Of a stretch of DNA of 64,000 nucleotides, positions 23,692 to 64,000 are shown piece by piece. The stretch lies in NCBI RefSeq assembly GCF_030253575.1, contig NC_080563.1, positions 38,857,501-38,921,500 of the forward strand, written 5' to 3'. The notes under the pieces were generated by a model. The model was given only the letters and a program-made list of their open reading frames with translations, did not search any database and had not been told where the DNA came from. Each line of letters begins with the position of its first letter. The first letter of the stretch is position 1. This DNA comes from Rhododendron vialii. Its lineage: Eukaryota; Streptophyta; Magnoliopsida; Ericales; Ericaceae. The position numbers were made by a program, and so were the translations under genes.

Positions 23692-25135
23692 ATGAACTCT
23701 CCAATTGTTTAAACCATCTCATAATGCTTCATCAAACCACAATATCCATCACAAGATGAGCCAAACCATCAACCAATCCACTTGGCCAGTTGGCCTCATG
23801 GGACCTAGCCATGCTCTCAACTCGAGTCAAACCATCCACCAATCCACTTGGCCAGTTGGCCTCATGGGACCTAGCCATGCTCTCAACTCATTACATCCAA
23901 AAGGGCCTTCTCTTCAACAAGCCCACCACTACAGCTAACCAAGAAAACCCTGTCCAATCTCTGCTAGAGAACCTCAAGGAGTCTGTGTCTCTCACCCTTG
24001 TTCATTTCTATCCCCTCGCCGGTTGACTCGCAACCCAGAAATAAGAGAACCCGCATTCTTACTCCTTGTGTATCGATTGCAACAATAGCCCCAGAGCAAA
24101 ATTTATCTATGCAACTGCGGATTTAATCATCTCTGACATTCTTTCGCCCGTTATGCTCCTTTAGTCGTTCATGTTTCAATCCTTCTTCGATCACAACAGG
24201 GCGGTTAATAACGATGGTCATACAATGTCATTGCTGTCAATTCAAGTCACGGAGTTAACAGATGGGATTTTCATTGGTAGTTCGATAAGCCACGTGGTGG
24301 TTGGAGGAACGTCGCATTGGCATTTCTTAGACATTTTGTCCAACAACTTTCGTGTACAAGAAAAGAGTCATGATATTTCTTGTCCTCCAATTCTTTCTCG
24401 GTGGTTTCCTAACGGGCACGCCCTGTTCTCAACCTCCCTTTCACTCACCACGTTCAGTTCATCAACAGATTTGAAGCTCCCCCACTTAGAGAGAGAGAGA
24501 ATCTTCCATTTATCGTCGAAATCCATTGCAAAACTCAAACCGAAAGCCAATTCGGAGTGCAACACAACCAGGATTTCTTCGTTCCAAGCTGTATCAGCGC
24601 TCGTCTGGAGGTGCGCTACGCGTGCTCGTGGTCTTCCTCGTGACCAAGAAACCAATTGCAGAATGGCTGCAAATAACTGAGAGGGCGAATGGTCCCGCCC
24701 TTGCCGAGTGAGTATTTCGGGAATTCAATGCAAATAGTGAATGCAAAAGCTGCAGCAGGGAAACTGCTCGAGCACGGATTTGGCTGGGCAACGTGGCGGG
24801 TGCATGAGGCGGTGTCAGGCCACTCTGACGCGGAGGTGCGGGAGTGGGTGGGGAGGTGGACGGAGGATCCGTTCAAATGCAACATGGGGCAGTTTTTTGA
24901 CCCGTTTAGCGTTATGATGGGGAGCTCGCCACGGTTTGGGATGTACGGGAATGAGTTTGGGATGGGAAAAGCGGTGGCGATTCGGAGTGGATATGCGAAT
25001 AAGTTTGACGGGAAAGTGACATCGTACCCTGGGTACGAAGGCGGCGGTAGCATAGATTTGGAGGTTTGCTTCTCGCCGGAGGCGATGAGGGGGATTGAAT
25101 CCGATGACGAGTTTATGGAAGCTGTGTGTGGATGA
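23692..25135 (+). pseudogene. BAHD acyltransferase pseudogene (copy 1)
   Basis: The whole length matches the intact BAHD copies downstream, but the frame is interrupted by several stops and frameshifts: the first is only about seven codons after the ATG, and later ones fall in the LAGR-like region and after MAANN. A 66-base in-frame tandem duplication (about 23765-23896) repeats the segment corresponding to LASWDLAMLS. The catalytic HXXXD motif reads HVVVG, so the aspartate is gone. The C-terminal part is well kept, with EFGMG and the DGKVTSYPGYEGGGS block. Its C-terminal half (FFDPFS, MMGSSPRF, MYGNEFGMG) is closest to copy 7. It is the first of the array, on the same strand. Loss of function looks certain. 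Confidence 0.9.
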
Positions 25136-25187
25136 TCTGATCAAGTTCATTCATGGTAGAATATTTGTGTACGTATGTATGAATAAT

Positions 25188-25243
25188 ACTCCCTCCGTCC
25201 TCATGAATAGTCCATGCTGAAACTATCATTTAGGACGGAGAAA
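25188..25243. repeat. Truncated Stowaway-like ends
   Basis: ACTCCCTCCGTCCTCATGAA is followed 35 bases later by TTAGGACGGAGAAA, an inverted match of the Stowaway terminus. The very short spacing suggests an internally deleted MITE. Confidence 0.45.
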
Positions 25244-26146
25244 ATAATGTTCATTTTTTCAATATTTACCACTCATATCTGTCACCTGAATTAATTGTCG
25301 GTTATTTTGGTGTGCAATCCAACATTGGAAAGAGATCCATCTCCTTTTTTTTTTTTTAACAAACTCAGTTAATTTTGATTACTCAAAATTCGCTCAAAGG
25401 ACTACAAACCCCAAATTGGAGCTCATCAATAAGAACAAATCCACGATAATCGAATTATTCATGTGGTTTAAACAGAAATACTCTTGGTACAGGAAAACCA
25501 CTACCTAAAGAGATGGATAATCGGGCTATCCATCTCTTTTATCTCAATTTTTCGGGCCACGGGTACTTTTTCACCATCATACAAATACAATAGTGCACGG
25601 AACTCATATTAGCCGTATGTTTTAAGAGCTGGAGTCCATTTTTGCTGTGTTTGGTTTGTGTTTTGAAATTTTTTTTAAAAAATAGTAAGGGTAATAAGTG
25701 AAAAGAGATAGAGAGAGAAATGTTAGAAGTAGGAGAAATCTAGGGGAAATTTTTTGAAAAATTCTTTTCAAATAGCATAGAGAACAAGGAGTTTTTGCGA
25801 GGGTAGGAACAATAATTTTTGGATCTGGCCATTCTGTAGTCAACTGTAGGGTGTACAGTCAAATATGGACCGTTCATATTGACAATTATTGGTTCGTGAA
25901 TTTTTTTACTGGTAAAAATATATTATTACCGGTTAAAGATTCAAAACAAATTATTGAAAACGATGACCGATGGTTCCAATCATTTGAATCGCAGACAAGC
26001 CATATACTAATTTTTCCCTTGTGGGATCCCACTCCTTCCTGGTACTTTCCCCATTTCAACACTATCATAAGCTCTGTGATAAAGCTCCATAGAACAACCC
26101 AGTTGAGTTTCAAACAGAAAACAATTTTCTCATTATTCAATTGACA
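25244..26146. other. Spacer upstream of BAHD copy 2
   Basis: No gene seen. AT-rich, with a T run at 25346-25358. The last 80 bases (AAAGCTCCATAGAACAACCC and on) resemble the leaders of copies 7 and 8, so they are probably the leader of copy 2. Confidence 0.4.
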
Positions 26147-27508
26147 ATGAACCCTCCAATTGTTCGAACCATCTCAGAGTGCTTCATCAAACCACAATAT
26201 GCATTAGAAAAACCAAGCCATCCACCAGTCTACTTGGCCCCATTCGACCTAGCCATGCTATCAATGCAATACATACAGAAGGGTCTTCTCTTCATCAAAC
26301 CCACCCCAACAAATGACCGAGAAAACCCTGTCCAAACTCTGCTAGAGAAGCTCAAGGAGTCCATGTCTCTCACCCTAGCCCAGTTCTATCCCCTCGCCGG
26401 TCGGCTTGCGACCCACAAACAAGAAAACCCGCGTTCTTATTTCGTGTGCATCGATTGCAACGACAGCCCCGGAGCAAAACTTATCCACGCAACAGCGGAT
26501 TTAACCGTCGCTGACATTCTTTCGCCCGTTGATGTCCCTGTGGTCGTTCAATCGTTCTTTGAGCATGGCAGGGCGGTTAATCACGATGGGCACGCGATGT
26601 CATTGCTGTCGATTCAAGTGACGGAGCTAATCGATGGGATCTTCGTTGGTTGCTCGATCAACCACGTGGTTGCTGACGGAACATCGTATTGGCAGTTCTT
26701 CGACGGTTTGTCGAATGCCTTCCGTGCAGGAGAAAAGAGTTTCGAAATTTCTCGTCCCCCAGTCCTTCATCGCTGGTTTCCCGATGGGTACGGCCCGATT
26801 ATCGACCTCCCTTTCTCTCACCACGATGAATTCATCGGACGAGTCCAGGCGCCCCCACATAGAGCGAGAATCTTCCACTTCTCGTCGGAATCTGTGGCCG
26901 AACTCAAGCGTAAGGCCAACTCGGAGTGTAAAACCCTCGATATCTCTTCGTTCCAAGCCATATCCGCGCTCATCTGGAGGTGCGTCACACGAGCACGCAG
27001 TGTTCCACGCGACCAGGAAACCAGCTGCAGCATGGCTGCGAATAACCGGACCCGAATGGACCCGCCGTTGCCAGACGAGTATTTCGGCAACTCAGTTCAG
27101 CTGGTGAAAGGAAAAGCCTCCGCCGGTGAACTCGTCCAGCACGGGTTCGGGTGGGCGGCGCGGCGGCTGCACGAGGCGGTGGCAGGCCACTGCGCCGCGG
27201 CGGTGCGAGAGTATGTAGAGAAGTGGATGGAGCATCCGATTATGTACGTTAATGGGAAGTTTTCGGACCAGTTCAGTTTGGTGATGGCGTGGTCGACTCG
27301 GTTTGCAATGTATGAGTGTGAGTTTGGGATGGGAAGAGCGGTGGCGATTCGGAGTGGTTATGACACGAGGTTTGACGGGAAAGTGACGTTTTACCCCGGG
27401 ATCGAAGGCGGCGGAAGCATGGATGTGGAGGTGTGCTTGTTGCCGGAGGCAATGAGGGAACTTGAATCCGATGGGGAGTTTATGGATGCTGTCAATGGCA
27501 AGCGCTGA
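26147..27508 (+). CDS. BAHD acyltransferase, At3g50280-like (copy 2)
   Basis: A single-exon gene of 453 aa, usual for BAHD enzymes (about 430-460). The ATG at 26147 starts MNPPIVRTISECF, the family N-terminus. The catalytic HXXXD motif is HVVAD at residues 173-177, inside CSINHVVADGTSYW. The structural motif, DFGWG in most BAHDs, is EFGMG at 392-396, as is usual in this clade. BAHD enzymes move an acyl group from an acyl-CoA to an alcohol or amine in the cytosol; the acceptor cannot be told. It belongs with copy 1 and the C-terminal half of copy 7 (group A: SINHVV, ETSCSMAANN, EVCLLPEAM). It is more diverged from the other copies than they are from each other. The 3' third is notably GC-rich. 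Confidence 0.9.
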   Translation: MNPPIVRTISECFIKPQYALEKPSHPPVYLAPFDLAMLSMQYIQKGLLFIKPTPTNDRENPVQTLLEKLKESMSLTLAQFYPLAGRLATHKQENPRSYFVCIDCNDSPGAKLIHATADLTVADILSPVDVPVVVQSFFEHGRAVNHDGHAMSLLSIQVTELIDGIFVGCSINHVVADGTSYWQFFDGLSNAFRAGEKSFEISRPPVLHRWFPDGYGPIIDLPFSHHDEFIGRVQAPPHRARIFHFSSESVAELKRKANSECKTLDISSFQAISALIWRCVTRARSVPRDQETSCSMAANNRTRMDPPLPDEYFGNSVQLVKGKASAGELVQHGFGWAARRLHEAVAGHCAAAVREYVEKWMEHPIMYVNGKFSDQFSLVMAWSTRFAMYECEFGMGRAVAIRSGYDTRFDGKVTFYPGIEGGGSMDVEVCLLPEAMRELESDGEFMDAVNGKR

Positions 27509-27542
27509 AGGGAACAACATGGAAATCACTCATGTTAGGATG

Positions 27543-28354: not shown

Positions 28355-29719
28355 ATGAACACTCCAACTGTTCAAACCATCTCAGAGTGCTTTATCAAAC
28401 CACCATATTCAGTGGAAGAGGTAAAGCCTCCAATCCACTTGGCCGCATGGGACTTAGCCATGCTCTCAGTGCATTACATCCAAAAGGGTCTTCTGTTCAT
28501 TAAGCCCCAAACAACAACAAATGACCAAGAAAACCCAGTCGAATCCCTCCTAAATAGGCTCAAGGATTCCCTCTCTCTCACCCTTGTTCACTTCTACCCG
28601 CTAGCCGGTCAACTCGCAACCCTAAAACAAGAAAACCCTCCTTCTTACTCTGTGTACATCGATTGCAACAATAGTCCCGGAGCAAAATTTATCTATGCAA
28701 GTGCGGATTTAACCATCGCCGACATTCTTTCGCCTGTTGATGTTCCTGTAGTTGTCCAATCCTTCTTTGATCACGACAGGGCGATTAATCACGATGGGCA
28801 TTCGATGTCGTTGCTGTCAATTCAAGTCACGGAGTTAAAGGATGGGATATTCATCGGTTGTTCAGCCAACCACGCGGTTATTGATGGAACATCTTATTGG
28901 CATTTCCTGGAAATTTTGTCGCACACCTTCTGTGCAGAGGAAAAGAATCCTGGAATTCCTCGACCTCCAATTCTTAAACGTTGGTTTCCTAACGGGCACG
29001 GTCCTATGCACAGCCTCCCTTTCTCTCACCACGATCAGTTTCTTAGTAGATTTGAAGCGCCCCCGCTTAGAGAGAGAATATTTCACTTCTCGTCGGAATC
29101 CATAGCCAAACTGAAAGGAAAGGCCAATTCTGAAAGCAAATCAAGCAAGATCTCCTCGTTCCAATCGGTATCCGCGCTGGTCTGGAGGTGCGTGATCCGG
29201 GCCCGTTGTCTTCCGCGTGACCCGGAAACAACTTGCATCATCACTGCAAATAACCGAAGCCGAATGGACCCGCCATTGCCGAACGAGTATTTTGGGAATT
29301 CGGTGCTCAGATTGATGGGAAAAGCCTCCGTCGGAGACCTGCTCGATCACGGGTTAGGGTGGGCGGCGTCGCAGTTGCACGAGGCCGTGGAGGGCCACTC
29401 CGATGCAGCGGTGCGGGAGTGGGTGGAGAAGTGGATGGAGGATCCAGTCATCTACACACGTGAGCCAGGACTATATAACCCGTATGGTTTATTGATGGGG
29501 AGCTTGCTGCGGTTTGGGATATATGCGAATGAATTTGGGATGGGAAAAGCGGTGGCGATTCGGAGTGGGTATGCGAATAAGTTCGACGGGAAAGTGATGC
29601 TGTACCCGGGGTATGAAGGCGGCGGAAGCATGGATTTGGAGGTTAACCTCCCGCCGGAAACAATGGCGGCGCTTGAATCTGACGAGGAGTTCATGGATTG
29701 CCTTAACTCTAAGTGCTGA
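28355..29719 (+). CDS. BAHD acyltransferase, At3g50280-like (copy 3)
   Basis: A single exon of 454 aa starting MNTPTVQTISECF. HXXXD is HAVID at residues 173-177 in CSANHAVIDGTSYWHF; EFGMG is at 393-397. Other family blocks are present: FYPLAGQLAT near residue 83, the FFDHDRAINHDGHSMSLLSIQ stretch in two parts around 140-160, and RMDPPLPNEYFGNS. It belongs to group B with copies 4, 5, 6, 8 and 9 (SANHAV, EVNLPPETMAALESDEEFMD). Nothing is missing, so it should be an active cytosolic acyl-CoA-dependent acyltransferase; the substrate is unknown. It lies head-to-tail with copy 2, 850 bases downstream. Confidence 0.9.
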   Translation: MNTPTVQTISECFIKPPYSVEEVKPPIHLAAWDLAMLSVHYIQKGLLFIKPQTTTNDQENPVESLLNRLKDSLSLTLVHFYPLAGQLATLKQENPPSYSVYIDCNNSPGAKFIYASADLTIADILSPVDVPVVVQSFFDHDRAINHDGHSMSLLSIQVTELKDGIFIGCSANHAVIDGTSYWHFLEILSHTFCAEEKNPGIPRPPILKRWFPNGHGPMHSLPFSHHDQFLSRFEAPPLRERIFHFSSESIAKLKGKANSESKSSKISSFQSVSALVWRCVIRARCLPRDPETTCIITANNRSRMDPPLPNEYFGNSVLRLMGKASVGDLLDHGLGWAASQLHEAVEGHSDAAVREWVEKWMEDPVIYTREPGLYNPYGLLMGSLLRFGIYANEFGMGKAVAIRSGYANKFDGKVMLYPGYEGGGSMDLEVNLPPETMAALESDEEFMDCLNSKC

Positions 29720-31254
29720 AGGACACATTATGAAGAGGATAGCTACCAACACAACTTTAAAACCGTGCATGAAATTATTCAATGCACATAAATTCACATG
29801 CATCGAATAGTTCGGACATGAAGTTGTGCTTGTAAACTTTTTATTATCAACGTTTGTTCATCTTTATGGTATAGGAGGACAAATTTACCCCCAATGGTCC
29901 TATTATGCTCCTCTCTTTTTTGTTGTTCCATGAGGTACTTGGGTTATTTAGCCACATCTCAACAATATTCTTTTCCGGTAAAGTTTAAAGCAAGCCATTA
30001 ACGTTAGAACAAGGTTATTCACACGATCTATTGTGCTCTGATTATTTGTGTGGGACTCTAAAATGAGTCCACCACAATTCAATGAAAGCATTTTTGTTTG
30101 ACAAAAAAAAAAAAAATGTAAGCATTTCAAACGAATAAGTGTAAGTGAAATGCATCACTAAATCTGAAGGGTTAAAAGTCATTTTCCAAACCTAGAGGGA
30201 GAATCTATACTTAAGGGAAACTTTGGGGGGTCTCAGTTATATTTACCCTGTCAAGTACATTTTCAATGCATTAGGATAGTCTATGAGATAGACTATACGA
30301 CATTAGATGGATCATGACGTTGAACAATGCACTTGAAGAGGGGCCATACCAATGAGACGATCAGCTATGTTGAGATAGTACTCTTTATGAAGTATGAGTC
30401 TTATGAATCTTTTTGGCAACTTTTGGTGGGGATCGCAACCTTATGGTGATCTTTCTTTATGTTGAATATTAACCCTAGGTTGAACCACAATCATACTATT
30501 GGGGGAGGTTGAATCGAAACTCCAGTCCCTTCTCTCTTTCAAAACCCTTACAGCCTTCTAGTAAATCTTAGCTTAATCAATTAAAATCCAAACTTTCATT
30601 CATTTTCCGTATTAAATTAGAGCTTGATTAAGGATACATTGACTTAGTTTTTTACTCCCCTAGAATTAAATTAGAACTTGATTGGATGCAAGGGTATTAA
30701 AGCTAGCTCAATGAATGAATCCCAAAGTACAGTTCCCATGTGAGAGGAGATTTGTTAGGACATATGTGAGTGTTAGATTTCACGAAGGATAACATAATAA
30801 AAAGTTGGGGCTTCTTATAAAAAATTGGATAGTTCATCGTTTTTACAACTTTAAGTTTTTAAATTGTTCTGAGTTTATGTACTTTGTATTGGACTCAATT
30901 AGTGTAGATTCCGTAGAACTACTAGTGAAGTGACAAATCAACGTACATTACAAGCACCTTAACAGATAAAAAAAATATTTGGGTAGTTGAATAAAACTCT
31001 AGATGATAATACGATTTAAAAAATCAATAAATAGACCCCTCACCTTACCCAATCCAAACAGAAAAATGATTATCAATTGATTTGCCAAATTATGAGAGAA
31101 ATGTGCTGATGTTGTTTTCTTTGTTTTTTCCGTTTGGCTTTTGGCTTCTTCTGTACCTACAACTAAATACAAAACAGCTAAATTTCAGTTTAACCAACTA
31201 AAGTGAAGTGTTAGCTTCATCAAGCACTGAAAACAGTAGTCTCCATTTGCTACA
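29720..31254. other. Spacer between copies 3 and 4, with upstream module
   Basis: The first 200 bases contain a tail shared with copies 6 and 7 (GTATAGGAGGACAAATTTAC against GTAAAGGAGGACAAATTTAC). From about 30230 to 30540 the sequence matches the upstream modules of copies 5 and 9 (GGATAGTCTATGAGATAGAC; GGAGGTTGAATCGAAACTC). The last 110 bases are the conserved leader (GTGTTAGCTTCATCAAGCAC). No other gene seen. Confidence 0.5.
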
Positions 31255-32622
31255 ATGAACCCTCCAATTGTTCAAACCATCTCAGAGTGCTTCATAAAAC
31301 CACATTATCCAGTAGAAGAGATTAAGCCTCCAATCTTCTTGGCCGCATGGGACATAACCATGCTCTCACTCAATTACATCCAAAAGGGTCTACTGTTCAT
31401 TAAGCCCCAATCAACAACAAATGACCAAGAAAACCCAGTCAAATCCCTCCTACATATCCTCAACGATTCCCTCTCTGTCACCCTTGTACAGTTCTATCCC
31501 CTCGCCGGTCGTCTTGCGACCCTGAAACAAGAAAACCCGCCTTCTTACTCAGTGTACATTGATTGCAACAATAGTCCCGGAGCAAAATTTATCCATGCAA
31601 CTGCGGATTTAACTATCGCGGACATTCTTTTGCCAGTTGATGTTCCTGTAGTTGTTCAATCCTTTTTTGATCACGACAGGGCGATTAATCACGACGGGCA
31701 TTCGATGTCGCTGCTGTCGATTCAAGTCACGGAGTTAATCGATGGGATATTCATCGGTTGTTCAGTCAACCACGCGGTTGTTGACGGAACATCTTATTGG
31801 CACTTCTTCAACAGTTTATCACAAACCTTCCGTGGACAAGAAAAGAATCCTGGAATTTCTCAAGCCCCAATTCTTAAACGTTGGTTCCCTAAGGGGCACG
31901 GTCCTATGCACAACCTCCCTTTCTCTCACCATGATCAGTTTATTAGGAGATTTGAACCACCCCCGCTAAGAGAGAGAATCTTCCACTTCTCGTCGGAATC
32001 CATAGCCAAACTCAAAGGAAAGGCTAATTCTGAGAGCAAATCAACCAAGATTTCCTCTTTCCAATCTGTATCCGCGCTTGTCTGGAGGAGTGTGATCCGG
32101 GCCCGTCGTCTTCCACACGACCCAGAAACCACTTTGAGCATGATTGTAAATAACCGAAGCCGAATAAACCCGCCGTTGCCGAATGAGTATTTCGGGAATT
32201 CGGTGAGTGTATTGACGGGAAAAGCCACTGTTGGCGAATTGCTTGATCACAGTTTTTGGTGGGCGGCATGGCGGTTGCACGAGGCGGTGGAGGCCCACAC
32301 CGATGCAGCGGTGCAACAGTGGGTGGAGAAGTGGATAGAGAATCCACTTATAAACACACGTCATGAGCCTGCACTGTATAACCCGTATGGTGTATTGGTA
32401 GCGAGCTCGCCTCGGTTTAGGATTTACGAGAATGAGTTTGGGATGGGGAAAGCGGTGGCGATTCGGAGTGGTTATGCAAATAAGAGGGACGGTAAAGTGA
32501 TGTTTTACCCTGGGTATGAAGGCGGTGGGAGCATGGATTTGGAGGTGAACCTCCCGCCGGAAACAATGGCGGCGCTTGAATCGGACGAGGAGTTTATGGA
32601 TGGCCTCAATGGTAAGTGCTGA
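31255..32622 (+). CDS. BAHD acyltransferase, At3g50280-like (copy 4)
   Basis: A single exon of 455 aa, start MNPPIVQTISECF. HXXXD is HAVVD at residues 173-177 (CSVNHAVVDGTSYW), EFGMG at 394-398. Group B. Differences from its near twin copy 5 include LHILNDSLSVTLVQF where the others have LLDRLKDSLSLTLVHF, and SFWWAAWRLHEAV in place of GLGWAAW; the second change sits in a conserved helix and could affect the acyl-CoA channel (inference). It carries one extra residue near position 376 (NTRHEPALYNP). With its downstream spacer and copy 5 it forms a unit that is repeated as copy 8, spacer and copy 9. Substrate unknown. Confidence 0.9.
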   Translation: MNPPIVQTISECFIKPHYPVEEIKPPIFLAAWDITMLSLNYIQKGLLFIKPQSTTNDQENPVKSLLHILNDSLSVTLVQFYPLAGRLATLKQENPPSYSVYIDCNNSPGAKFIHATADLTIADILLPVDVPVVVQSFFDHDRAINHDGHSMSLLSIQVTELIDGIFIGCSVNHAVVDGTSYWHFFNSLSQTFRGQEKNPGISQAPILKRWFPKGHGPMHNLPFSHHDQFIRRFEPPPLRERIFHFSSESIAKLKGKANSESKSTKISSFQSVSALVWRSVIRARRLPHDPETTLSMIVNNRSRINPPLPNEYFGNSVSVLTGKATVGELLDHSFWWAAWRLHEAVEAHTDAAVQQWVEKWIENPLINTRHEPALYNPYGVLVASSPRFRIYENEFGMGKAVAIRSGYANKRDGKVMFYPGYEGGGSMDLEVNLPPETMAALESDEEFMDGLNGKC

Positions 32623-34330
32623 CGGACACAGTATCAACATTTAGAAAAGTGGAATTAATGTCGCCGATTGCAATTAATTGAGACTCGATTTGGTTTGGTT
32701 CATCTTTTTGTGTCACTTGAATTTTGGTTTGTAATCTCTTAAAAAAGTCAGAGCCACTCACTCTCTCGTTCTCTTTCTCAATGCTCTGCTATTGTGGTGT
32801 GGGTTTGTGAATAGCCTTAGCTCGGAGAAAATCACTACGTTTCGTTTGTAATTTTGAGATAATTTTTTTTTTTATAGATTTGCGTATTTTTTCGGTTTTA
32901 GTAAATTTTTTTAACATTTTAACAAATTCTTTTACTTTTTGAATAAAAGTACGCTATGTATATCCAAAAAGTATAAAATAAGTAAATTTTTTTACAAAAA
33001 ATCATTAAAGACGAAAAAACACGGATGATGAAACAGTCAAAAGTTTTGAAGAGAATATTTCTAAAAGGAGAACCAAACGAAGTGAATAATACTAGACAAT
33101 TATAGATCAATATCAAGAGGGAGTTTGGATTCAATGAAACCAAAATTCAATGTCAATGTGAATGTGAATGGTGCCCAAAAGTATGGTTCACATTTGAGTG
33201 GAGATTTGTTTGGACATGGATGAAGGTTATAATTTTGGGTTTTATCTTGGATATTTCAAAAAACATTTTGCAAGAGAAGGAAGATAGAGGTGAAGGAGTG
33301 CCTTTCATTTTGGCGCCAAACCATGTCACAGAAAGCGTGGGAGAGAGAAATTGATTAAAAAATTACAGAATAAGGAGAAGTGAGTGAACCGTTGATCGTC
33401 TCCTTTGACGAGTTAGTGTAGATTATGTACAACTTTGGGTCAAGTCTAGTGCAAAGCAGTTTATGGGACTTTTGTCAGTATTTAAGTAGCTTGATTAGGA
33501 TGCTCCAGGGCTAGTAAAAGTACTGAGAAATTTATGGGACTTTGTTGCGATTTGGTATCGCGACCGGAAGCGATCGACCCCATATTTACTAACAGTAACT
33601 GCAGCAAAAACGAATCCGGTAAGCAATTTAGGTAGGAGCACTAGTTGGTGATTTGAAAAAAAGAAGCTAGGAGCCCGGCCAGGACTACTCCAAGGAGGAT
33701 ATCATAAAAAGTACTGGAGATATATATACTCAATGTTTTGAAAGTCTTAATAATTTGTTTGAAATCAATTGCTTGAGCAAACCAAGTGTAAACAGATTTG
33801 TTGAACTCGATAAGTTTTTAAATCAAGTACTGTCACAAGCTACACAGGCTTAAAGACAAGCAAAACGGGTGAGTTTTGCGCATCTTGTCCGGATTGGAGT
33901 GATGTCCGTCCAGATCGATCACTGCCACCAGCTAGCCAGACTCCTGGACATATGCTGATGGTGGTCATGGCCGGTCCTGAAGGTCGGGTGACTCGGGCCC
34001 ATTCTCTTATATTTTATTACTAAGCTATAGTCGTAAACTATACAAATAAAACCTTAGCTCTTTGTTTATGGTTCTGAAATATTTTTTGAGATACAGAGAG
34101 GCTAGAGAAGAAAGAAAAACAAAGAAGACGGAGAGAATGGATCAAAGAACAATGGTTTCCACCATCTACTCCGCGATGATCAACTCCATCATGAGCGGCT
34201 AAACTCTCCGGCTAGGGTAACGAGGATGCTTCTCTGAATAGTATTATTGTATTGATTTTTAGTGTAACGATTCATGGAGTAGTGGTTATTAAGTATTCAT
34301 TCTTTCGATCTATCTTTCGTGTTCGTATTC
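32623..34330. repeat. Downstream module, copy a (matches 60379-63070)
   Basis: From the stop codon of copy 4 on, the sequence follows that behind copy 8, block after block: TTTGGTTTGTAATCTCTTAA, then GTGTAGATTATGTACAACTT, CAGTAACTGCAGCAAAA, CCACCAGCTAGCCAGACTCC and GAGCGGCTAAACTCTCCGGC. The target of the hAT element present at 61673 is empty here (TGTCCGTC at 33903-33910). No open frame is shared between the two copies, so it looks non-coding. Confidence 0.8.
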
Positions 34331-34759: not shown

Positions 34760-34761
34760 TA

Positions 34762-34973: not shown

Positions 34974-35010
34974 TATATAGCAACTGATTTGTCAAATTGG
35001 TCCTCAATTG

Positions 35011-38578: not shown

Positions 38579-38616
<38 letters not shown>

Positions 38617-49975: not shown

Positions 49976-50089
49976 CGAAGAGCTTAAAATATAGGGCTTA
50001 TTCTTTCCGAGAGAGAAAATAGCCGAATAGGCAAGTAGGCAATCCAAAGATCTACTCCTCCAAACCTCATACATGCATACACTACAAGA

Positions 50090-52630: not shown

Positions 52631-54087
52631 TTATAATCTGTGGTGATGTTATACCACTTTGTAGTCAAAGTTAACAGGTTAATTATATGTTAAGGCAGTT
52701 GCACTACAGCTGCTCCCAGAGTTTATAGGGGATACCTCAATGGATTCTTTATCCATGTGACCGTTCTTCGTTTGTACCAAAAGAAGAGTAGGATTGGTGT
52801 AAGATAGTAAACCTTTTTGTATATATATTAAACAAGTGTATTATGCTTGTTTTCTTAATGAGGTAAATCTATGGAGTATATTGCGGGTTGCATATTTTGA
52901 TTAAAGTTGTTGTAAGTTTCGGCTCTGTTTCGTATTTGCTTTAATCCAAATAGAGTTTCATGAAGTTTTCTGTTATATTCTTACTTCCACTTGGTAAAAA
53001 TTGACGGTCATGGTTTAGTTACTACAGTTTGCTTTGAAGTCCTAGTTGAGGACTTGGTCAATATGACTTGCATTGCTTGTTTTTCAAGTATTTTGAAAGT
53101 TGATCAGTTGATCCAATAAGGTCGTCTTTGGCTTCACATAAGCAGATTGCTCTTGCTCTCAGTAATTTTCTCTTGTTTGCCTTTCACTTCAATCTCTGTT
53201 AAACTGTGTTTGATGCGAGTAGAGTCTTGAGGTAGGTATTCAATAGCAAAAGTCTTTAATTTGTGGGTCATTACTCAGAAGCCATTTGATTCTAATAAAA
53301 GGACCAAGTTTCCTTGGACCAGAACTTGAAGAATGATTGCTTCATTTTTCGCTTTCCATTTATCGTTTGTTCTTGAATAAGGAAAGGTTATTGTGATGGG
53401 TACGTCGAGTTTGGACCTTTTGTTTCTCCTTCTTTCTTGTATGCTCGGAAGTTTTCGCCTAAACACTGTTCAGATTCAGACGGGTATCAACACAGCCAAT
53501 TTCACTATTAAAAGCGCATATTGGAGTAGAAGGTTGGAAGCTAATTATTTTCCTTGTCTGAGGTGCTGGCTTTGGTTTTTTATTTTCTGCATAGTCTGCT
53601 GGTGTTGCTACTTTTATTTAATCTCGATATTGAATGCCTTTTGGAACTGTAATAAAAGCTGATTTAAATAGTATGCCTATGTTGTTTTTTAATTTTGACA
53701 GTCTTATTGGTCTTCATATTTTTAATTTCAAATGTTGTCTTTATCTATAGTTCATAGGTAGACAAAATGTCCAAAGGAAGAAAACTATGGCTCCAACCAA
53801 GTTTTATAGCAAATCAAGTCATACCCGATTATGAGAGAGTAAAGAGAAACAATGAGGTATTGAATTCTTACATCTCACATAACTCAACTCACACACACCA
53901 ACATCAAAAAACAACACTCCCGAATGATGGGTGAGGAAGACTCCTAGGCCGATAGGAGAGAAACACGGGGGCAAAACAAACCAAACAAACAAACCAGAAC
54001 AAACCCCAACAAAATCATACCCAACAATCAAAATGATCGGACGCCAAGAGACCACGCCGATCATGCCGCCTCTGAAAAGAATAAAGA
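52631..54087. other. Spacer, no gene recognised
   Basis: T-rich sequence. An open frame of 89 codons at 53393-53662 starts with a hydrophobic, signal-peptide-like stretch (LDLLFLLLSCMLGSF) but has no family resemblance and a tryptophan/cysteine-rich tail; I do not call it a gene. Confidence 0.4.
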
Positions 54088-54731
54088 GGACGATCGGTGG
54101 TCAAGAGACCGCCGAGGAAGAAGAATGCCGGCACCATCATTGATCGTCACTGTTGCCGCACCATCCGGCACCATCACCGCTCGTCATCGTCCCCTATTCA
54201 TGGTTGTGTATTCAAGGCCACGAAATCAATTTCTAGCAGCAAATCAAAGGTCACCTGAGGTGTATATATTGGGCATCCTGTTCTTCATCTCATCATAAAT
54301 TCTAGAACGAAATATAGTCCAGTCTGATATTATTATTTTGTGAGAGAGGCAGATGTTCGTTCAATTTGCCAAGGCGGTTTTCTAGTGGTGTTTCGATAGC
54401 CGTGGTCTAGTTGTTATATCCTGAGATACAAACACCGGTCAACCTCGAACACTCAACGATAAGGCGGTGAATCTGCTTTAAGAAGACTAATTCAGGGCTC
54501 GATTCAGTTTATGTATTTCAGTCCATTTGGTATTCTGTCTATTTAACTTGCAATCTGTAATTCGAGTTTATCGTCAACGAAAAGTGTACTCTGGAATTCG
54601 TTGATCATATTGTATTTTTTTCAAAAATAGTTGGTAACTAAGAAAAAGAGCCAAGGGCCCAAGACTGGTAAAAGTTGATGTAGAGCACATCTTAACCTAT
54701 GGTTGAAAGCTTAATCACATAGTTTATAAAA

Positions 54732-55108
54732 GGGTCCAATTACTGGTACAGATTTTGTACATAGTTTTTTGTGGGGACCACTACGGGTCCCACACAAATG
54801 ATCCAAGCTAATCATTAAATGTAAAATAGTTTTTCAAGGGCTCCTGCAAAAATTCAGCTCAATCCGCTACTTATAGGTATTGAATCCAATCATCTAATTT
54901 TTCATTTAGATTTCAGGATATGAAAAAGTTAGATGATTAGATCGAATATCTATAAGTATCGGATTGAGCTGAATTTTTGCGAGGGCCCTTGAAAAAATGT
55001 TTTACATTAATGAACGGCTCGAATCATTTGTATGGGACCCGTAGTGGGCCCCACAAAAAATCTATGTACAAAATCTGTACCAATTTTTCTATACCCATGG
55101 ACTTTCTG
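54732..55108. mobile_element. Mutator-like foldback MITE
   Basis: Long inverted arms: TGGTACAGATTTTGTACATA on the left, TATGTACAAAATCTGTACCA on the right, continuing through CCCACACAAATGATCC-type matches to the centre (AGTTAGATGATTAGAT). TTTATAAAA stands at both borders (54723-54731 and 55109-55117) and once in block A, so the target duplication is 9-10 bases, the Mutator size. The right border carries about 13 unpaired bases. Confidence 0.75.
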
Positions 55109-55331
55109 TTTATAAAAACACAGTTTTCGATGCAATTTTGAAGGTTGGTTAACACATTAGAAATTTGTGTTTTTTTTCCTTTTCTGCCTTATTGACAGCC
55201 CAACTGATCAAGAAGTAAAGGCGTAGACTGCGACAGCATTTGAGGGATAGATGAAATAAGCAAACACACACGAAACAGGATCACAATCTGATCAAGAAGT
55301 AAAAGCATTAAATTGAAATTAACAAATGCGT

Positions 55332-55620
55332 AGAAAGTCTTCAATACACATTCCTTTAAGATGTGTACCATATGTACCTATTGTGTGATTCATATTGTGC
55401 CACCTCATAAAAAATTACTTGTACGACCGGTCATTCATAACATTTTATTCTGTATCGTAACTTTTATGCTAAAAATTCGTAACTTTTCATCAATATGATT
55501 TGTAACTTTTTAGCAATAGATTCATAATATTTTAGAAATCATAACATTTTGGTGTGTTTCAATGAGGATGCATATGATACACACCTAAATAAATGATGTG
55601 TATTGTGGCACTTCCCTAAC
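55332..55620. mobile_element. Small foldback element with ATGCGT repeats
   Basis: ATGCGT flanks it (55326-55331, 55621-55626). The ends pair imperfectly: CAATACACATTCCTTTAAGATGTGT-like on the left, ACACACCTAAATAAATGATGTGTATTG-like on the right. The third module copy near 48.3 kb reads straight through the corresponding place, supporting an insertion here. Confidence 0.5.
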
Positions 55621-55786
55621 ATGCGTCCAAGAAAGATATCATAAAAGCCTATAAATAAATAAATAAAACATATCACAAAACGTTGCCATTGTGAGATTCG
55701 TTCAAATATAGTAAAAGATGTGCTTACGATCCAAAGTGTCGAATTATTTATAAATTAATTAAGCATTAGCCATTACGTAGCAGTAG

Positions 55787-56207
55787 CAAGCCTGTCAATA
55801 GACCGAATAAATTCGAATCCGATAAGATTCAAATTTTATTCGAATATGATAAAACTCGAATCCGAAAGTGGTAATCGGAATCCGAATTCGAAAAATCGGA
55901 TTCGATCCGAAAACTTTTTTACTTCAAAAATTTTAGCAAAAAAATATTTTTTTCAAAAGAATATAATTATTTTACCAAAAAAATTTAAAAATTTAAAAAA
56001 AAATACAAGTTTAAAATAAAAATACAACTTCTTAAACATTTTTTTTTCAAATAAAAATTTAAAGTTTTTTTTTTAAAAATTCGGATCCAATTGATGACCG
56101 ATTTAATCCAATCCGAATTCAATCCGATCCGTATTTGGATTACCAAATTCGGATTATCGCATCGACGTTATCGGATTTGGAATGAATCCGGTCCATTGAC
56201 AAACCTA
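55787..56207. mobile_element. Non-autonomous hAT element
   Basis: The termini CAAGCCTGTCAATAGACC and GGTCCATTGACAAACCTA are inverted repeats. The 8-base target duplication AGCAGTAG lies at 55779-55786 and 56208-56215, and block A carries the single, empty AGCAGTAG. It is 421 bases, AT-rich with many AATCCGAATTC-type subrepeats, and has no transposase. Confidence 0.88.
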
Positions 56208-56413
56208 AGCAGTAGTTGATGAATGGTGACTAAGGAAAGGAGCCAAGACCAGGTACAGAAAATTGAACATTAATTCTCATTAAGGAGCAACACTCTTTTT
56301 AATTACTATTAAGTCTAGACGTGTGCTGAGAACGTTCTCAGAGCTAAAAATGTTTGAGAACGTTGTCAAAGCTAAGAACTTTCTCAGAACTGAGAACTTC
56401 TAGGAACGAATTA

Positions 56414-58158
56414 TATAAAGACCCGTAAATTCATAAAACTTATTTAAATGTTTTATAAGAGATGAAGGAGGAAATTGATTCAAAATATCGAGAATTGGGG
56501 CTAATGTGATAAAGTATTAGGCTTGAGGGGTGAATGTGTGATGTGTGTAAAGTGTATATGCATATATGTGTGTAGAGTGAGAGGCAGGGAATTTATTTCC
56601 CTTCTCAACATCTCTCCTGTCCCCCCTCTCTCTCTCGGCTCCCATCTCTCACTCTCACTCTTACTCAAACTCCACCCAAATCACCTAAAACCTACACAAA
56701 ACTACCTCCAATCTTTCATTCCTACGCGTATTGGAGCTCGTTTCTCATCGGATTAAGCTCGGTGGAGGCGTATCCCATTCGATTGCAAGCTTTGGAGCTC
56801 GGGCTTGGAAAATCATTTAAATTCGTTCTTCAATCTTGAGGTAGGGAGTTCTAACTTTCAATATATGTTTATGACTTGTTTCTTGTAGCTTGATTCTTGC
56901 CTTTGATTGTTGTTAATGTTGTTGTGGTTGTTGTTGCTGTTAAACTCATGAAAATCTGCTTGAAATGAACTGTTATCGATACCTTCACTATTGTTATCGA
57001 TACCTTTGTGCTTCAAAACCCAGAAAATCACTTGTTATCGATACCATTCGTCATTGTTATCGATACCCTTGCATCTGGAATCAATTTTGACCAAATGGTA
57101 TCGATACCTTTGTGCTAGGTATCGATACCTGATGCTTATCTCCAACTTTCACTGTTTTGCTTCATTTTTCACCATTTTGATTTTTAATCACTTACAACCT
57201 ATCCAAACACTTCCCGAATGATCCCTTAACTCAATCACTCGTACCTAATGACTTCGTTGAATGTGTCCATGACCATAATGCTCATTTGAACTTGATTTCA
57301 CGAAAATCATTTTATATAAAACTTTGGATTTGAATGGTACAAACATGACGATAGAGGGATTTTAATACTTTACGGATACAACGAGAACACTTCAAGACAT
57401 CCCAATGGGTAAAGTGTCTGGCAGAGGACATCGGGGTCCTTTAATTGGCCCGGCATGAGCTATATGCTCATATTTGATACTTCAGGACATCTCGAATGGG
57501 TAAAGTGCCTGGTAAAGGACATTGGGGTCCTTTAATTGGCCCAGTAAGAGCTTCGGCTCATGACACATGTACGAGACACATCTTGACGTATAGTGTTTTC
57601 AAAGTTTGTTTAGTAAGACACATGATTGATTTTGAAAATGAAAGAATGGAGTCGGATTACTATTGTTACCCCTTCCATTGGTTTTTGGTGGTCATCTTTC
57701 ATCCTGTGATTGTTTCTACATTTTATTTGCATATAATGTTAGATTAGAGCTTTCTATTGGACTAGTGTAGCTCAAACCTTACATTATATTTCAAGTACTA
57801 ACCCTGGGCAGTAGTTGCATGCTTGGAGTGCTTGGGCGTAGACATGGTTTTGAAAGCTAACTTGAAGAAGTTATATATCAATCTTCGTGAATCACTTTTT
57901 GGAAGATGCATTTGTAACTTCTTTTGATATTACTTTGATATGAGGATATTGTAAACCCTAATTCTTGAATACTTGGCACTTTTGTCGATTTCAGGGCCGT
58001 TAAGCTGATGATGTACCTTTTGTAAACATTTGGACTTTAAAGTGTAATTTATGGAAATGGACTTGTTAAATCCTTTTTGGGTTATTGTACGGATAATTGT
58101 GAGGTTTTTATTAATGAAAATCTCTTATATATTTATGTTGAAAATCGAGAGCGTGACA
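56414..58158. mobile_element. Solo LTR of a retrotransposon (fossil)
   Basis: 1745 bases are flanked by the 5-base direct repeat AATTA (56409-56413 and 58159-58163); block A has the single empty site. The terminus ...GAGCGTGACA and the start ...AAGACCCGTAAATTC resemble the long LTRs of plant Ty3/Gypsy elements. No gag, pol or primer-binding region is present, so this is a solo LTR left by recombination. It contains six TATCGATACC motifs (56973-57129) and a roughly 60-base repeat around 57391 and 57480. It is younger than the block A/B duplication. Confidence 0.75.
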
Positions 58159-58355
58159 AATTACCACCAAATCTAGGCATGTACTCAGAATGTTCTCAAC
58201 TATGAAATATCCACAACTGTCAGTATTACACTGAAAACGTTCTCAAAGCTAAGAATATCTGAGAACTTTCTCAACGGTCAACGTTAGTTGTCAATGGTCA
58301 ACGCCGATGATTTGTCAACAGTCAACAATAGTGGTTGAGGAGTATTTTTTTGGTA

Positions 58356-58887: not shown

Positions 58888-59031
58888 CCCACTCATCCTC
58901 CCTTCCTCGAAATGGCTTATTGTTGGTACCTTCAAATTTTCTCCTACATAAGCTCCCATAAAGCTCCATTAAAACACAACTGAGTTTGATCAACTAAGAG
59001 TGCTTCAGAAAACCACAATATCCCACTAACC
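58888..59031 (+). promoter_or_regulatory. Shared promoter block and leader of copy 8
   Basis: CCCACTCATCCTCCCTTCCT, then CGAAATGGCTT, lies about 144 bases before the ATG. The leader (58998-59031) contains GAGTGCTTCAGAAAACCACA, a diverged copy of codons 11-17 of the gene itself, 64 bases upstream of the real ones. Confidence 0.5.
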
Positions 59032-60378
59032 ATGAACCCTCCAATTGTCCAAACCATCTCAGAGTGCTACATCAAACCACAATATCCAGCAGAAGAGGTG
59101 AAGCCTCCCTTCCACTTGGCCTCCTGGGACATAGCCATGCTCTCTGTGCATTACATCCAAAAGGGTCTTCTGTTCATTAAGCCCCAAATAACAAGTGATC
59201 AAGAAAACCCAATTAAATCCCTCCTAAATAGGCTCAAGGATTCCCTCTCTCTCACCCTGGTTCATTTCTACCCCCTGGCCGGTCAATTCGCAACCGTAAA
59301 ACAAGAAAACCCGGCTTCTTACTATGTGTACATCGATTGCAACAGTGGTCCCGGAGCAAAATTTATCTATGCAACTGCGGATTTGACTATCGCCGACATT
59401 CTTTTGCCTGTAGATGTTCCTGTAGTTGTTCAATCCTTCTTTGATCACGACAGGACAGTTAATCACGACGGGCATTCGATGTCCCTGCTGTCAATTCAAG
59501 TCACGGAGTTAATCGATGGGATATTCATCGGTTGTTCAGCCAACCACGCGGTTGTTGATGGAACATCTTATTGGCATTTCTTCAACAGTTTGTCGCACAC
59601 CTTCGGTGCAGAGGAAAAGAATCCTGGAATTCCTCGACCACCAATTCTTGAACGTTGGTTCCCTAACGGGCACGGTCCTATGCACAACCTCCCTTTCTCT
59701 CACCATGATCAGTTTATTAGAAGATTTGAAGCGCCACCGCTTAGAGAGAGAATATTCCACTTCTCGTCGGAATCCATAGCCAAACTCAAAGAAAAGGCCA
59801 ATTCTGAAAGCAAATCTAGCAAGATTTCCTCGTTCCAATCTGTATCCGCGCTTGTCTGGAGGTGCGTGATCCGGGCCCGTCGTCTTCCACGCGACCCCGA
59901 AACCACTTGCACTATGGCCGCAAATAACCGAAGCCGAATTGACCCGCCATTGCCAAACGAGTACTTTGGGAATACGGTGCTCACATTGACAGGAAAAGCC
60001 ACCGTTGGCGAGCTGCTTGATCAAGGGTTGGGGTGGGCGGCGTGGCGGTTGCACGAGGCGAGGGAGAGCCACTCTGATGCGGCGGTTCGAGAGTGGGTGG
60101 AAAAGTGGACGGAGAATCCTGTTATATACACGCGTGGGCATAACCCGTTCGCATTATTGTTGGGGAGCTCGCCGCGGTTTCAGATGTATGAGAATGAGTT
60201 TGGAATGGGGAAAGCGGTGGCGATTCGGAGTGGGTATGGGAATAAGTTTGACGGGAAAGTGATGTTTTACCCTGGGTATGAAGGCGGGGGAAGCATGGAT
60301 TTGGAGGTTAACCTCCCGCCAGAAACAATGGCGGCGCTTGAATCGGACGAGGAGTTTATGGATGGCCTCAATGGTTAG
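59032..60378 (+). CDS. BAHD acyltransferase, At3g50280-like (copy 8)
   Basis: A single exon of 448 aa, start MNPPIVQTISECYIKP. HXXXD is HAVVD at 172-176 (CSANHAVVDGTSYWHFF), EFGMG at 389-393. Group B; the middle is close to copies 3-5. It has one residue fewer at ITSDQENP and a shorter variable loop (YTRGHNPFALLLGSSPRF), as in copy 6. The stop is a TAG in place of the AAG codon for Lys in the NGKC ending of copy 4, so the protein ends at LNG, two residues early; this should be harmless. HEARESHSDAAV replaces HEAVE(A/G)H. With its spacer and copy 9 it repeats the copy 4-5 unit. Substrate unknown. Confidence 0.9.
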   Translation: MNPPIVQTISECYIKPQYPAEEVKPPFHLASWDIAMLSVHYIQKGLLFIKPQITSDQENPIKSLLNRLKDSLSLTLVHFYPLAGQFATVKQENPASYYVYIDCNSGPGAKFIYATADLTIADILLPVDVPVVVQSFFDHDRTVNHDGHSMSLLSIQVTELIDGIFIGCSANHAVVDGTSYWHFFNSLSHTFGAEEKNPGIPRPPILERWFPNGHGPMHNLPFSHHDQFIRRFEAPPLRERIFHFSSESIAKLKEKANSESKSSKISSFQSVSALVWRCVIRARRLPRDPETTCTMAANNRSRIDPPLPNEYFGNTVLTLTGKATVGELLDQGLGWAAWRLHEARESHSDAAVREWVEKWTENPVIYTRGHNPFALLLGSSPRFQMYENEFGMGKAVAIRSGYGNKFDGKVMFYPGYEGGGSMDLEVNLPPETMAALESDEEFMDGLNG

Positions 60379-61664
60379 TGCTGAAGGGCACACTATGAAC
60401 ATTTAGAAAAGTAGGATTAATGTAACCGATCACAATTAATTGAGACTCGATTTGATTTAGGTTTGGTTCATCTTTTTGTTTCACTTGAATTTTGGTTTGT
60501 AATCTCTTAAAAAAGTCAGAGCCAGTCACTCTCTTGTTCTCTTTCTCAATGTTCTGCAATTGTGGCGTGGGTTTGTGAATAGCCCTAGCTCGAAGACAAT
60601 CACTGTGTTTGGTTTGCAATTTTGAAATAAATTTCTTTAATAGATTTGCGTATTTTTTTCGTATTTAATAAAAAAATTTAACATTTTAACAAACTCTTAT
60701 ACTTTTTGAATAGAGGAGCGCTATATTCATCCAAAAAGTATAAAACAAGTAAAAATCACTAATGACGAAAAAACATGAATGACGAAACAGTCAAAAGTTT
60801 TGAAGATATTATTTCTGAGAGGAGAACCAAACGAAGAGAATAATCCTAGACAATTATAGATCAATATCAAGAGGGAGTTTGGATTCAATGGAACCAAAAT
60901 TCAATGTGAATGACAAATCAAAAACAAAATTTAATGTGAATGGTGCCCAAAGGTACGGTTCATATTTGAGGGGAGATTTGTTTGGACATGGATGAATGTT
61001 ATAATTTTGGACTTTATCTTGAATATTTCAAAAAATATTTTGCAAGAGATGAAAGAGAGGGTTGAAGGAGAGCCTTTCATTTTGGTGCCAAACCATGTCT
61101 CAGAAAGCGTGGAAAAGCGAAATTGATTGAGAAATTATAGAATAAGGAGGAGTGAGTGAACCGTTCATCGTCTCCTTTGACGAGTTAGTGTAGATTATGT
61201 ACAACTTTGGGTCAAGTCTAGTGCAAAGCAATTTATGTGACTTCTGTTAGTATTTAAGTAGCTTGATTAGGATGCTCCAAGGCTAGTAAAAGTGAGAAAT
61301 TTATGGGACTTTGTTGCGATTTGGTATTGCGACCGGAAGCGATCGACGCCGTATTTACTAACAGTAACTGCAGCAAAACCGAATCCGGTAAGCAATTTAG
61401 GTAGGAGCACTAGTTGGTGATTTAAAAAGAAGAAGAAGCTAGGACTGCTCCAAGGAGGATATCATAAAAAGTGGAGATATATACTCAATGTTTTGAAAGT
61501 CTTTAATAATTTGTTTGAAATCAATTGCTTGAGCAATTAAACCAAGTGTAAACAGATTTGTTAAACTCGATAAGTTTTTAAATCAAGTACTGTCACAAGC
61601 TACACAGGTTTAAAGACGAGAGCAAAACGGGTGAGTTTTGAGCATCTTGTCCGGATTGGAGTGA
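60379..61664. repeat. Downstream module, copy b (first part)
   Basis: It matches 32623-33902 behind copy 4 block for block (for example GGACATGGATGAATGTTATA against GGACATGGATGAAGGTTATA; GATTGCTTGAGCAA-type stretches). Non-coding. Confidence 0.8.
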
Positions 61665-61672
61665 CGTCCGTC

Positions 61673-62657
61673 CAGGGTCGGCCCTGGAATAAGCTCCACA
61701 AGTCCCCAGGCTTGAACAACCCCCCACCACGGGGCAACCAAAAAAAAAAAAAAATCCCGCAAGTATGTAATAAAATTTTTATTTGGCGCTATTATTACTT
61801 TCTTTGTCCCAGTGGAAAGGATTTGTGTGTCCATATAGAGTGTGCAGGTTCAAGTCACAATGTGGGCAGAGTCCTTATTTGTCTTTTTCATCCTCCAAGT
61901 CCCAATGGAGCTCCCCCTCCCCCCCCCCCCCCTCCTATTCTTTTTGGTCAACAAACTATAGGATCATCTCTTCTTCTTTTTTTGCTTCTTATGCCTCATA
62001 TAGTCTTACTATTACTTCTTTTCCTTTTATTTTTTCATGTGACATCTACTATTAAAAAGTTAAAGGGTTTAATTATTTGGTAAATAAACTTTCCTGTAAT
62101 ATATCTTCTTTTGTTCTGGTCAAACTATTTTGCTTTTATATTTCTTTTGATTACAATAACTGATATAGACGTTAAAATATTTATATTGGTAAATATTACT
62201 CACTTAATTTTAACCTTATATAGTAGGGTGTTTTTTTGCTAAAAATGATTTGTAAAAACAGTTGCTTCGGCAAAGAGCAGTTTTCCTTAGTTGAAGTCAC
62301 ATAAAAATTTACATTTAAACTACTATGTCATACGAGAGATTAAGTGGATCGGCTATGATCTTAATTGAAAATGAGTACATCATTAAGCTTAAGTACAATA
62401 ACTTAATTGAAGATTTTACTTCAAGAGATGCAAGAAGAAGTTGTTTTCTTTAAATTAGATTGTGGTAGTCAAAAATAATATAACCGGAGTTACATTTTTT
62501 AAAATTATTTTGATGTAATTCAAGCTAAAATCACAATGTAACATTGATTTTTTTTTTTACTTATATGTTTTTTATTTGTTTTTCACTGACTTAATAGTAT
62601 GTGGGCAATCAAGCTTGGGGTCGGGCTTGGGCAATCCAAACATCGGGGCCGGCCCTG
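61673..62657. mobile_element. Non-autonomous hAT element
   Basis: The ends CAGGGTCGGCCCTGG and CGGGGCCGGCCCTG are inverted repeats of the widespread CAGGGCCGGCCC plant hAT type. The 8-base target duplication CGTCCGTC lies at 61665-61672 and 62658-62665; the matching site in the copy 4-5 spacer is empty. It is 985 bases, AT-rich, with homopolymer runs (A at 61740-61754, C at 61920-61931), and has no recognisable transposase. A B-box-like GGTTCAAGTC occurs at 61848. Confidence 0.9.
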
Positions 62658-62665
62658 CGTCCGTC

Positions 62666-63509
62666 CAAACTGCCACCAGCTAGCCAGACTCCTGGACATA
62701 TGCTGACGGTGGTCACGGCCGGTCCTGATGGTCGGGTCCGTTCTCTTGCATTTTATTACTAAGCTATTGTCGTAGACTATACAAATAAAACCTAGCTCTT
62801 TGTTTATGGTTCTAAAATATTTTTTGAGATACAAAGAGGCTAGAGAAGAAGAGAAACAAAGAAAACGGAGAGAATGGGTCAAAGAACAATGGTTTCCAGT
62901 TCCACCGTCTACTCCGAGATGATCAACTCCATAATGAGCGGCTAAACTCTCCGGCTAGGGTAACGAGGATGCTTCTCCGAATAGTATGATTGTATAGATT
63001 TTTAGTGTAATGATTCATGGAGTAGTGGTTATAAAAGTATTCATTCTTTCGATCTATCTTTCGTGTTTGTATTCGTGATCGATATCAAGTACTGTGATAC
63101 GATAGTTTTCAATGCTTTCGGATAGTCTATGAGATAGACTACACAACATAAGACGGATCATGCTATTAAACAATGCACTTTGAGAGGGGTTGTTCCGATA
63201 TGTTGAGAAAGTCTTTACGAAGTATGAGTCTTGTGAATCGGAAATTATTGGTAGGGATCACAACCCTTATGGTGGTAATTTTTTATGTTGAATGTTAACC
63301 CGAGGTTTAATGTCAACCATACTATGAGGGGAGGTTGAATCGAAACTCTCTACTAACTACACTTAGTGAAGTGACAAATCAATGTACAATACAAACTCAT
63401 AACATATAAAAATACTTGCGTAGTTGAATAAAGCTCTATATGATAATACGGTTTAAAATATCAATAAATTGACCCTTCACCTACCCACTCCAAACAGAAA
63501 AATGAATAT
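62666..63509. repeat. Downstream module, copy b (second part) and upstream module of copy 9
   Basis: It continues the match to 33911-34759: CCACCAGCTAGCCAGACTCC, GAGCGGCTAAACTCTCCGGC, GAGGGGAGGTTGAATCGAAA, in the same order. No gene seen. Confidence 0.75.
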
Positions 63510-63778
63510 CAATTGATTTGCCAAATTATGAGAGAAATGTGCTGATGTTGTTTTCTTTGTTTTTTTCCGTTGGCTTTTGGCCTCTTCTGTACCTACAACT
63601 CCGAAATTGCTCGATAAATGTGCTCATCTACTCACAGTTTTTTTTTTTTTGTTGGCTTTCGCCTCTTGTACGTGTACATAAAACTCAATACAACAAACTG
63701 CAAAGCTAATTGAACCAAAGTGAAGGGTTAGCTTCAGCAAGCACAGAAAAACAATAGTCTCCACAATCCCATTTTACA
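63510..63778 (+). promoter_or_regulatory. Composite upstream region of copy 9
   Basis: Two related stretches follow each other. First comes the copy 4 type (GAGAGAAATGTGCTGATGTT near 63530, then GGCTTTTGGCCTCTTCTG). Then comes the copy 5 type (CCGAAATTGCTCGATAAATG near 63601, then GGCTTTCGCCTCTTGTACG). The leader that follows is that of copy 5. It looks like a 90-base tandem duplication or a junction between two flanks. Confidence 0.5.
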
Positions 63779-64000
63779 ATGAATCCTCCAATTGTTCAAA
63801 CCATCTCAGAGTGCTTCATCAAACCACAATATCCAGTAGAAGAGACAAAGCCTCCGATCTTCTTGACCGCATGGGACATAACCATGCTCTCACTCAATTA
63901 CATCCAAAAGGGTCTTCTGTTCATTAAGCCCCAAACAACAACAAATGATCAAGAAAACCTAGTCAAATCCCTCCTAGATAGGCTCAAGGATTCCCTCTCT
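63779..64000 (+). CDS. BAHD acyltransferase, At3g50280-like (copy 9, cut by window end)
   Basis: The first 74 codons are present and open: MNPPIVQTISECF to RLKDSLS. They differ from copy 5 only at residues 23 and 30 (both Thr here). The leader also matches copy 5. The active-site region lies outside the window, so function and integrity cannot be judged. Confidence 0.85.
   Translation, partial: MNPPIVQTISECFIKPQYPVEETKPPIFLTAWDITMLSLNYIQKGLLFIKPQTTTNDQENLVKSLLDRLKDSLS

Follow-up and report, generated by a model that had tools for sequence, protein, structure and literature searches.

A diverged tandem array of nine BAHD acyltransferase genes, one of them a mosaic, in plant DNA

Results

Nine BAHD genes lie head to tail on one strand

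We analysed a single 64-kb stretch of DNA (the window), which reads like plant nuclear DNA judging from the genes that it carries. From position 23692 to its right edge the window holds nine BAHD genes (PF02458), here called c1 to c9. All nine have the same orientation (+ strand, head to tail); seven are intact, one is a pseudogene and one runs off the edge. The array opens with c1 (23692..25134), a dead gene with stops at codons 7 and 11, further stops and two shifts of reading frame; 66 bp are duplicated within it, and its HXXXD motif reads HVVVG (HXXXG). It is followed by c2 (26147..27508), the most diverged of the intact copies, which is assigned with c1 to group A, and by the intact group-B genes c3 (28355..29719), c4 (31255..32622), c5 (35207..36571, nearest to c4 and c9) and c6 (43210..44556). 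The intact gene c7 (46104..47462) is a mosaic, c8 (59032..60378) is an intact group-B gene whose first ~110-260 nt are c7-like, and c9 (63779..64000) is cut at the window edge after 222 nt.

Each of c2 to c8 is one open frame encoding a protein of 448-455 aa. In all seven complete copies, positions 3 to 434 of the 434 in the PF02458 profile are matched in one frame (E 1.2e-75 to 1.3e-86), with the full-length Transferase domain scoring 255-291 bits (cut-off 22.7); c2 was entered in this search from an upstream TTG. Because the match runs from end to end in a single frame, the coding part of the complete copies is without introns. When the seven intact proteins were compared with the whole window using tblastn, 99 of the 114 matches (E up to 10) fell within the nine copy sites, and no tenth BAHD copy was found in the 64 kb, the remaining 15 matches having E values of at least 0.93. 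The profile and tblastn searches therefore agree with the sequence-only reading of this locus, which had described a nine-copy, head-to-tail, + strand array of intron-free BAHD genes; its tally of seven complete copies, one pseudogene and one edge-cut gene is borne out by the reading frames and domain matches.

The intact copies are diverged and constrained

Pairwise comparison of the intact copies gave identities of 75-92% in DNA and 67-90% in protein. Values of dS range from 0.22 to 0.81 among the 21 pairs, indicating that the intact copies are old, and dN/dS lies between 0.21 and 0.32 in every one of these pairs, from which we conclude that the intact copies are under purifying selection. 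The sole pair that looks young is c5 and c9, with 216 of 222 nt identical and a dS of 0.085 over those 222 nt. Within group B, mean dN in windows is 0.12-0.17 in codons 271-420 as against 0.03-0.10 elsewhere, a descriptive comparison made without a significance test. Windowed dN/dS in the same group rises to 0.45 at codons 331-390 and falls to 0.07-0.10 at codons 91-180 and 0.08 at codons 391-450; values of 0.34-0.39 and 0.38 are also seen in codons 1-90 and 181-240, respectively. The loop ahead of the EFGMG motif (see below) carries indels among the intact copies.

Trees and recombination tests identify copy 7 as a mosaic

Group B (c3, c4, c5, c6 and c8) is recovered with 100% support in two DNA trees, with c1 and c2 falling outside it. 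In the trees c4 clusters with c5, and c9, represented by its first 222 nt, joins c5 and c4 in a DNA tree (74% and 96%). Group A is weaker: c2 and c7 come together at 60% in a protein tree of the 3' part, built with two distant outgroups and with c1 left out, and the identity between c1 and c2 in 150-nt windows (73-83%) is about equal to that between c2 and group B. The division into groups A and B proposed earlier thus stands for B, including the placement of c9 with c5 and c4, and is weakened for A, whose members c1 and c2 are about as close to each other as c2 is to B.

The position of c7 changes along the gene. In the 5' 590 alignment columns it groups with B (100% for B plus c7), whereas in columns 591-1380 it lies outside B (100%). 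A maxchi analysis of the sites at which c1 and c2 agree and differ from a uniform group B placed a break in c7 near 46604 (6 of 2000 shuffles). Ordered triplet tests, 336 in all, returned 29 results at no more than 20 of 2000 shuffles, in most of which c7 or c8 is the recombinant or a parent. These give c7 B-like ends and a c1/c2-like interior, the widest group-A-like tract being 46533..47392 on the + strand, with approximate limits that vary with the triplet, and they show a resemblance between the start of c8 and c7. Nine chosen triplets were repeated with 100000 shuffles, by a procedure that ignores rate variation along the gene, and gave values of 0.003, 0.034, 0.034, 0.050, 0.087, 0.33 and, for three, 1 after correction for the 336 tests. 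The c7-like start of c8 was matched in 1 of 100000 shuffles (corrected 0.003) and c7 mosaic triplets in 10 of 100000 (corrected 0.034 over the 336 tests); two mosaic triplets fail correction (0.087 and 0.33). One triplet each for mosaicism of c2, c3 and c6, at 100000 shuffles, gave no support, and a short c1-like tract in c3 (29494-29580) reached 7 of 2000 shuffles, uncorrected. Discordant trees, maxchi and triplet tests thus converge on the earlier proposal that copy 7 belongs in part to group A, to which the statistical test of the mosaic is an addition.

Spacers record a block duplication and several insertions

The intergenic sequence gives a matching picture. Three segments, 31252-33913, 33921-34756 and 35028-35428, have collinear counterparts in 59029-61675, 62669-63509 and 63599-64000, respectively, at 87-90% identity. 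A + strand block comprising c4, its spacer and the start of c5 (31252..35428) therefore recurs, collinear and on the same strand, as c8, its spacer and the start of c9 (59029..64000), a block duplication that adds to the earlier reading of the locus. A single duplication of the c4-c5 block predicts equal divergence for c4/c8 and c5/c9; the observed identities are 87% over the whole gene and 97% over the first 222 nt, respectively, which calls for later conversion or another event. Taken together with the clustering of c4 with c5, this inequality makes a later conversion the likely explanation.

The second block copy carries in its spacer a ~985 bp insertion (61673-62657; ~1 kb) that is lacking from the c4-c5 spacer, with CAGGG-type inverted ends and a flanking direct repeat of 8 to 10 bp. 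From its ends, judged by eye, and its target duplication we take it to be hAT-like. Homology also links the c6-c7 spacer (44645..45842, + strand), in five pieces and at 82-95% identity, with the part of the c7-c8 spacer upstream of c8 (54084..58229, + strand), where it is split by four insertions. These lie within 54732-58155; one is bounded by a 10-bp and one by an 8-bp direct repeat, whereas scanning the remaining two yielded repeats of only 5 bp.

Similarity upstream of the start codons extends for about 30-220 nt. Spacer sequence farther out is common to c7 and c8, and to c4, c5 and c9. The upstream sequence that c1 and c2 have in common with other copies is limited to ~30 nt, on which basis the left end of the array looks oldest, and past growth seems to have been towards the right. 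An earlier suggestion that the array is probably still growing to the right is weakened: a copy of the c4-c5 block does lie at the right end, and c9 has 216 of 222 nt in common with c5, but dS between intact copies is 0.22-0.81. Neither a search for W-box, AC-element, G-box and TATA words, scored without a background, nor aligning the 260 nt before the copies revealed a pattern common to all of them.

Other elements are scattered through the spacers. The c5-c6 spacer contains a long inverted repeat (38585-39324 and 40072-40803; 85% identical, arms ~750 bp apart). In the c7-c8 spacer we observed a degenerate organelle-like 23S rRNA fragment (49795-50212, + strand; Rfam RF02541, 65 bits), which is probably an insert of plastid or mitochondrial DNA, and a zf-RVT remnant of a LINE-like element (52278-52630, - strand) scoring below the Pfam cut-off.

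Array copies keep HXXXD and carry EFGMG in place of DFGWG

All seven complete copies retain HXXXD, as had been claimed, and c9 ends before the motif. At the site of the second BAHD motif, DFGWG, the seven complete copies and c1 all read EFGMG (c9 again ends upstream), and strict DFGWG is found in none of the seven. EFGMG retains F, G and G, three of the five DFGWG residues, and so counts as DFGWG-like under the rule of at least three of five described for BAHDs (PMC3123328). The variant is already known, EFGMG being reported for one Brassica napus BAHD and QFGMG for two (PMC12299259), and is hardly discussed in the full texts searched for the string EFGMG. Its presence in the array adds to the earlier reading, which omitted the motif. 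A missing 'catalytic Trp', whose site in the array copies we placed by eye against what we take to be the HCT motif, was rejected as a hallmark of the array, the residue being absent from AmAT7-3, BOS and EPS1 as well. EPS1 is described as lacking both the conserved His and the conserved Trp of BAHDs (PMC9898226).

PDB searches with c3 and c8, two of the seven intact copies, returned beta-ODAP synthase, AmAT7-3 and EPS1 as best matches (230-282 bits), with hydroxycinnamoyltransferases at no more than 118 bits in a comparison that covers solved proteins alone. The top match is LsBOS, the grass pea beta-ODAP synthase (PDB 6zbs; 276 bits for c3 and 282 for c8), which has HXXXD in common with the complete array copies and DFGWG where they have EFGMG. 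The LsBOS gene is reported to be intron-less, like the single-exon coding parts in the array, and to belong with EPS1 to a BAHD clade that has undergone expansion in legumes (PMC9935904). The substrates of LsBOS cannot be assumed for the array copies. The second match is AmAT7-3, an Astragalus saponin acetyltransferase (PDB 8h8i) that has a large triterpenoid-glycoside acceptor and DFGWG, in contrast to the EFGMG of the array. Its H166 is the proposed base, and K407 hydrogen-bonds the acceptor in its authors' simulations (PMC10519980); the aligned sites are His and Lys in all seven complete copies, and Ser and Arg in EPS1. EPS1 itself, the Arabidopsis isochorismoyl-glutamate lyase (PDB 6wao), is the third and lowest-scoring of these relatives, and differs from the array in its DFGWG as well as in these two residues. 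The kinship with EPS1 proposed earlier is thus upheld for c3 and c8 by the PDB search, but the EPS1-type Ser (Ser160 of AtEPS1) is replaced by His in all seven complete copies, as in AmAT7-3 and SlEPS1, relatives that do transfer acyl groups. A comparison of the seven-copy alignment with genome contigs and viral contigs confirmed no relative, as expected for a plant gene.

Discussion

A known kind of locus with a probable history of duplication and shuffling

Tandem BAHD arrays with recombinant copies are already in print (PMC11449225, PMC6343889), and the nine-copy array is a locus of this known kind, an ordinary route to chemical diversity in plants. The process is common to the NtMAT1 cluster and the Solanaceae AT3 locus, recombinant copies included, although the BAHD genes are different ones. 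NtMAT1 forms a tandem cluster of two to sixteen copies in angiosperms and falls in another orthogroup than EPS1 (PMC11449225). At AT3, assigned to BAHD clade III (PMC11449225), tandem copies have recombined with each other (PMC6343889). The array is a further case of plant acylation diversifying by copying genes, recombining within them, constraining most and losing some. We take BAHD clade Ib to include EPS1 and to be the same as subclade 1c. Local duplications and taxon-specific branches have been described for clade Ib (PMC3123328); EPS1 and DCR are placed in one orthogroup assigned to subclade 1c, and few members of the subgroup containing EPS1 are said to have been characterised (PMC11449225). 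With its seven intact related enzymes, one of them a natural chimera, the array offers material for mapping what determines acceptor choice in this subgroup.

We are fairly confident in reading the locus as an old tandem array of single-exon BAHD acyltransferase genes related to EPS1, BOS and AmAT7-3, which were duplicated and shuffled and whose products would carry out CoA-dependent acyl transfer. The array would have grown as gene-plus-spacer units, and at least one block of two genes, were duplicated, with unequal crossing-over as the simplest option. Recombination or conversion within genes would have shuffled c7 and the start of c8, while c1 would have been lost as a functional copy. Each intact protein is predicted to bind an acyl-CoA and to use the HXXXD His to deprotonate a hydroxyl or amine of the acceptor, to which the acyl group would then move.

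Predicted activity and alternative readings

The conserved H166 and K407 equivalents bear directly on whether the copies might instead resemble EPS1, releasing salicylate from isochorismoyl-glutamate as a lyase and carrying out no acyl transfer. EPS1 is one of the three closest solved relatives of c3 and c8, and the His of the array is compatible with such an activity, since tomato SlEPS1 (His169) is reported to make both phenolamide and salicylate, with a His-to-Ser change lowering phenolamide (PMC12225020). On the other hand, the residues aligned with AtEPS1 Ser160 and with the Arg of EPS1 are His and Lys in all seven complete copies, EPS1 scores below BOS and AmAT7-3, and it would be unusual for a hormone step to have seven intact copies; we give a lyase-only array very little credence. 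The same residues, together with the SlEPS1 report, make ordinary acyl transfer the likely activity of the array copies as predicted from their sequences, and an EPS1-like side activity may exist beside it. The earlier view that no function or substrate can be transferred to the copies is retained.

The copies are most likely ordinary O- or N-acyltransferases that use acyl-CoA donors and are predicted to differ in acceptor. That they would differ chiefly in acceptor or in expression is suggested by the replacement changes in group B, which are densest at codons ~271-390, ahead of EFGMG; the high dN/dS at codons 1-90 and 181-240 makes this acceptor-loop argument soft. If all copies instead catalysed one reaction and were amplified for dosage, more copies giving more enzyme, then purifying selection in 21 of 21 pairs and the strong conservation of codons 91-180 would be readily accommodated. 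We nevertheless regard dosage as unlikely, given protein identities of only 67-90% among intact copies, indels in the loop before EFGMG, a replacement rate that peaks at codons 331-390, and upstream similarity that ends at ~30-220 nt, although spacers farther out are common to c7/c8 and to c4/c5/c9. A point against the main reading is the non-canonical second motif, as each of the eight copies extending that far has EFGMG rather than DFGWG. By analogy with LsBOS, proposed by its authors to take its acyl group from the partner LsAAE3 rather than from free acyl-CoA (PMC9935904), the fixed EFGMG could mark a changed donor side served by a partner acyl-activating enzyme, with intragenic shuffling diversifying the acceptors for the pair, a proposal that we consider distinctly improbable. 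Finally, the 216 of 222 nt that are the same in c5 and c9 could be taken as a sign of misassembly, of the whole array or of its right end. This is scarcely credible for intact copies that are 8-25% apart in DNA, with spacers holding different insertions; the c4-c5 and c8-c9 blocks are themselves ~10-13% apart where aligned and differ in insertions, some with target-site-like direct repeats.

The left third of the window

A Pfam search outside the array copies covered 20 of the 260 open segments of at least 55 aa. To the left of the array, a homeodomain segment at 7102-7524 looks to us like WOX4. A gene resembling those for poly(A)-binding proteins, with RRM and MLLE domains, lies at ~12 to 21.5 kb. 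Two tandem duplications, each 94% identical, are found within this gene (14004-14307; 150 bp) and before it (10610-10812; 104 bp).
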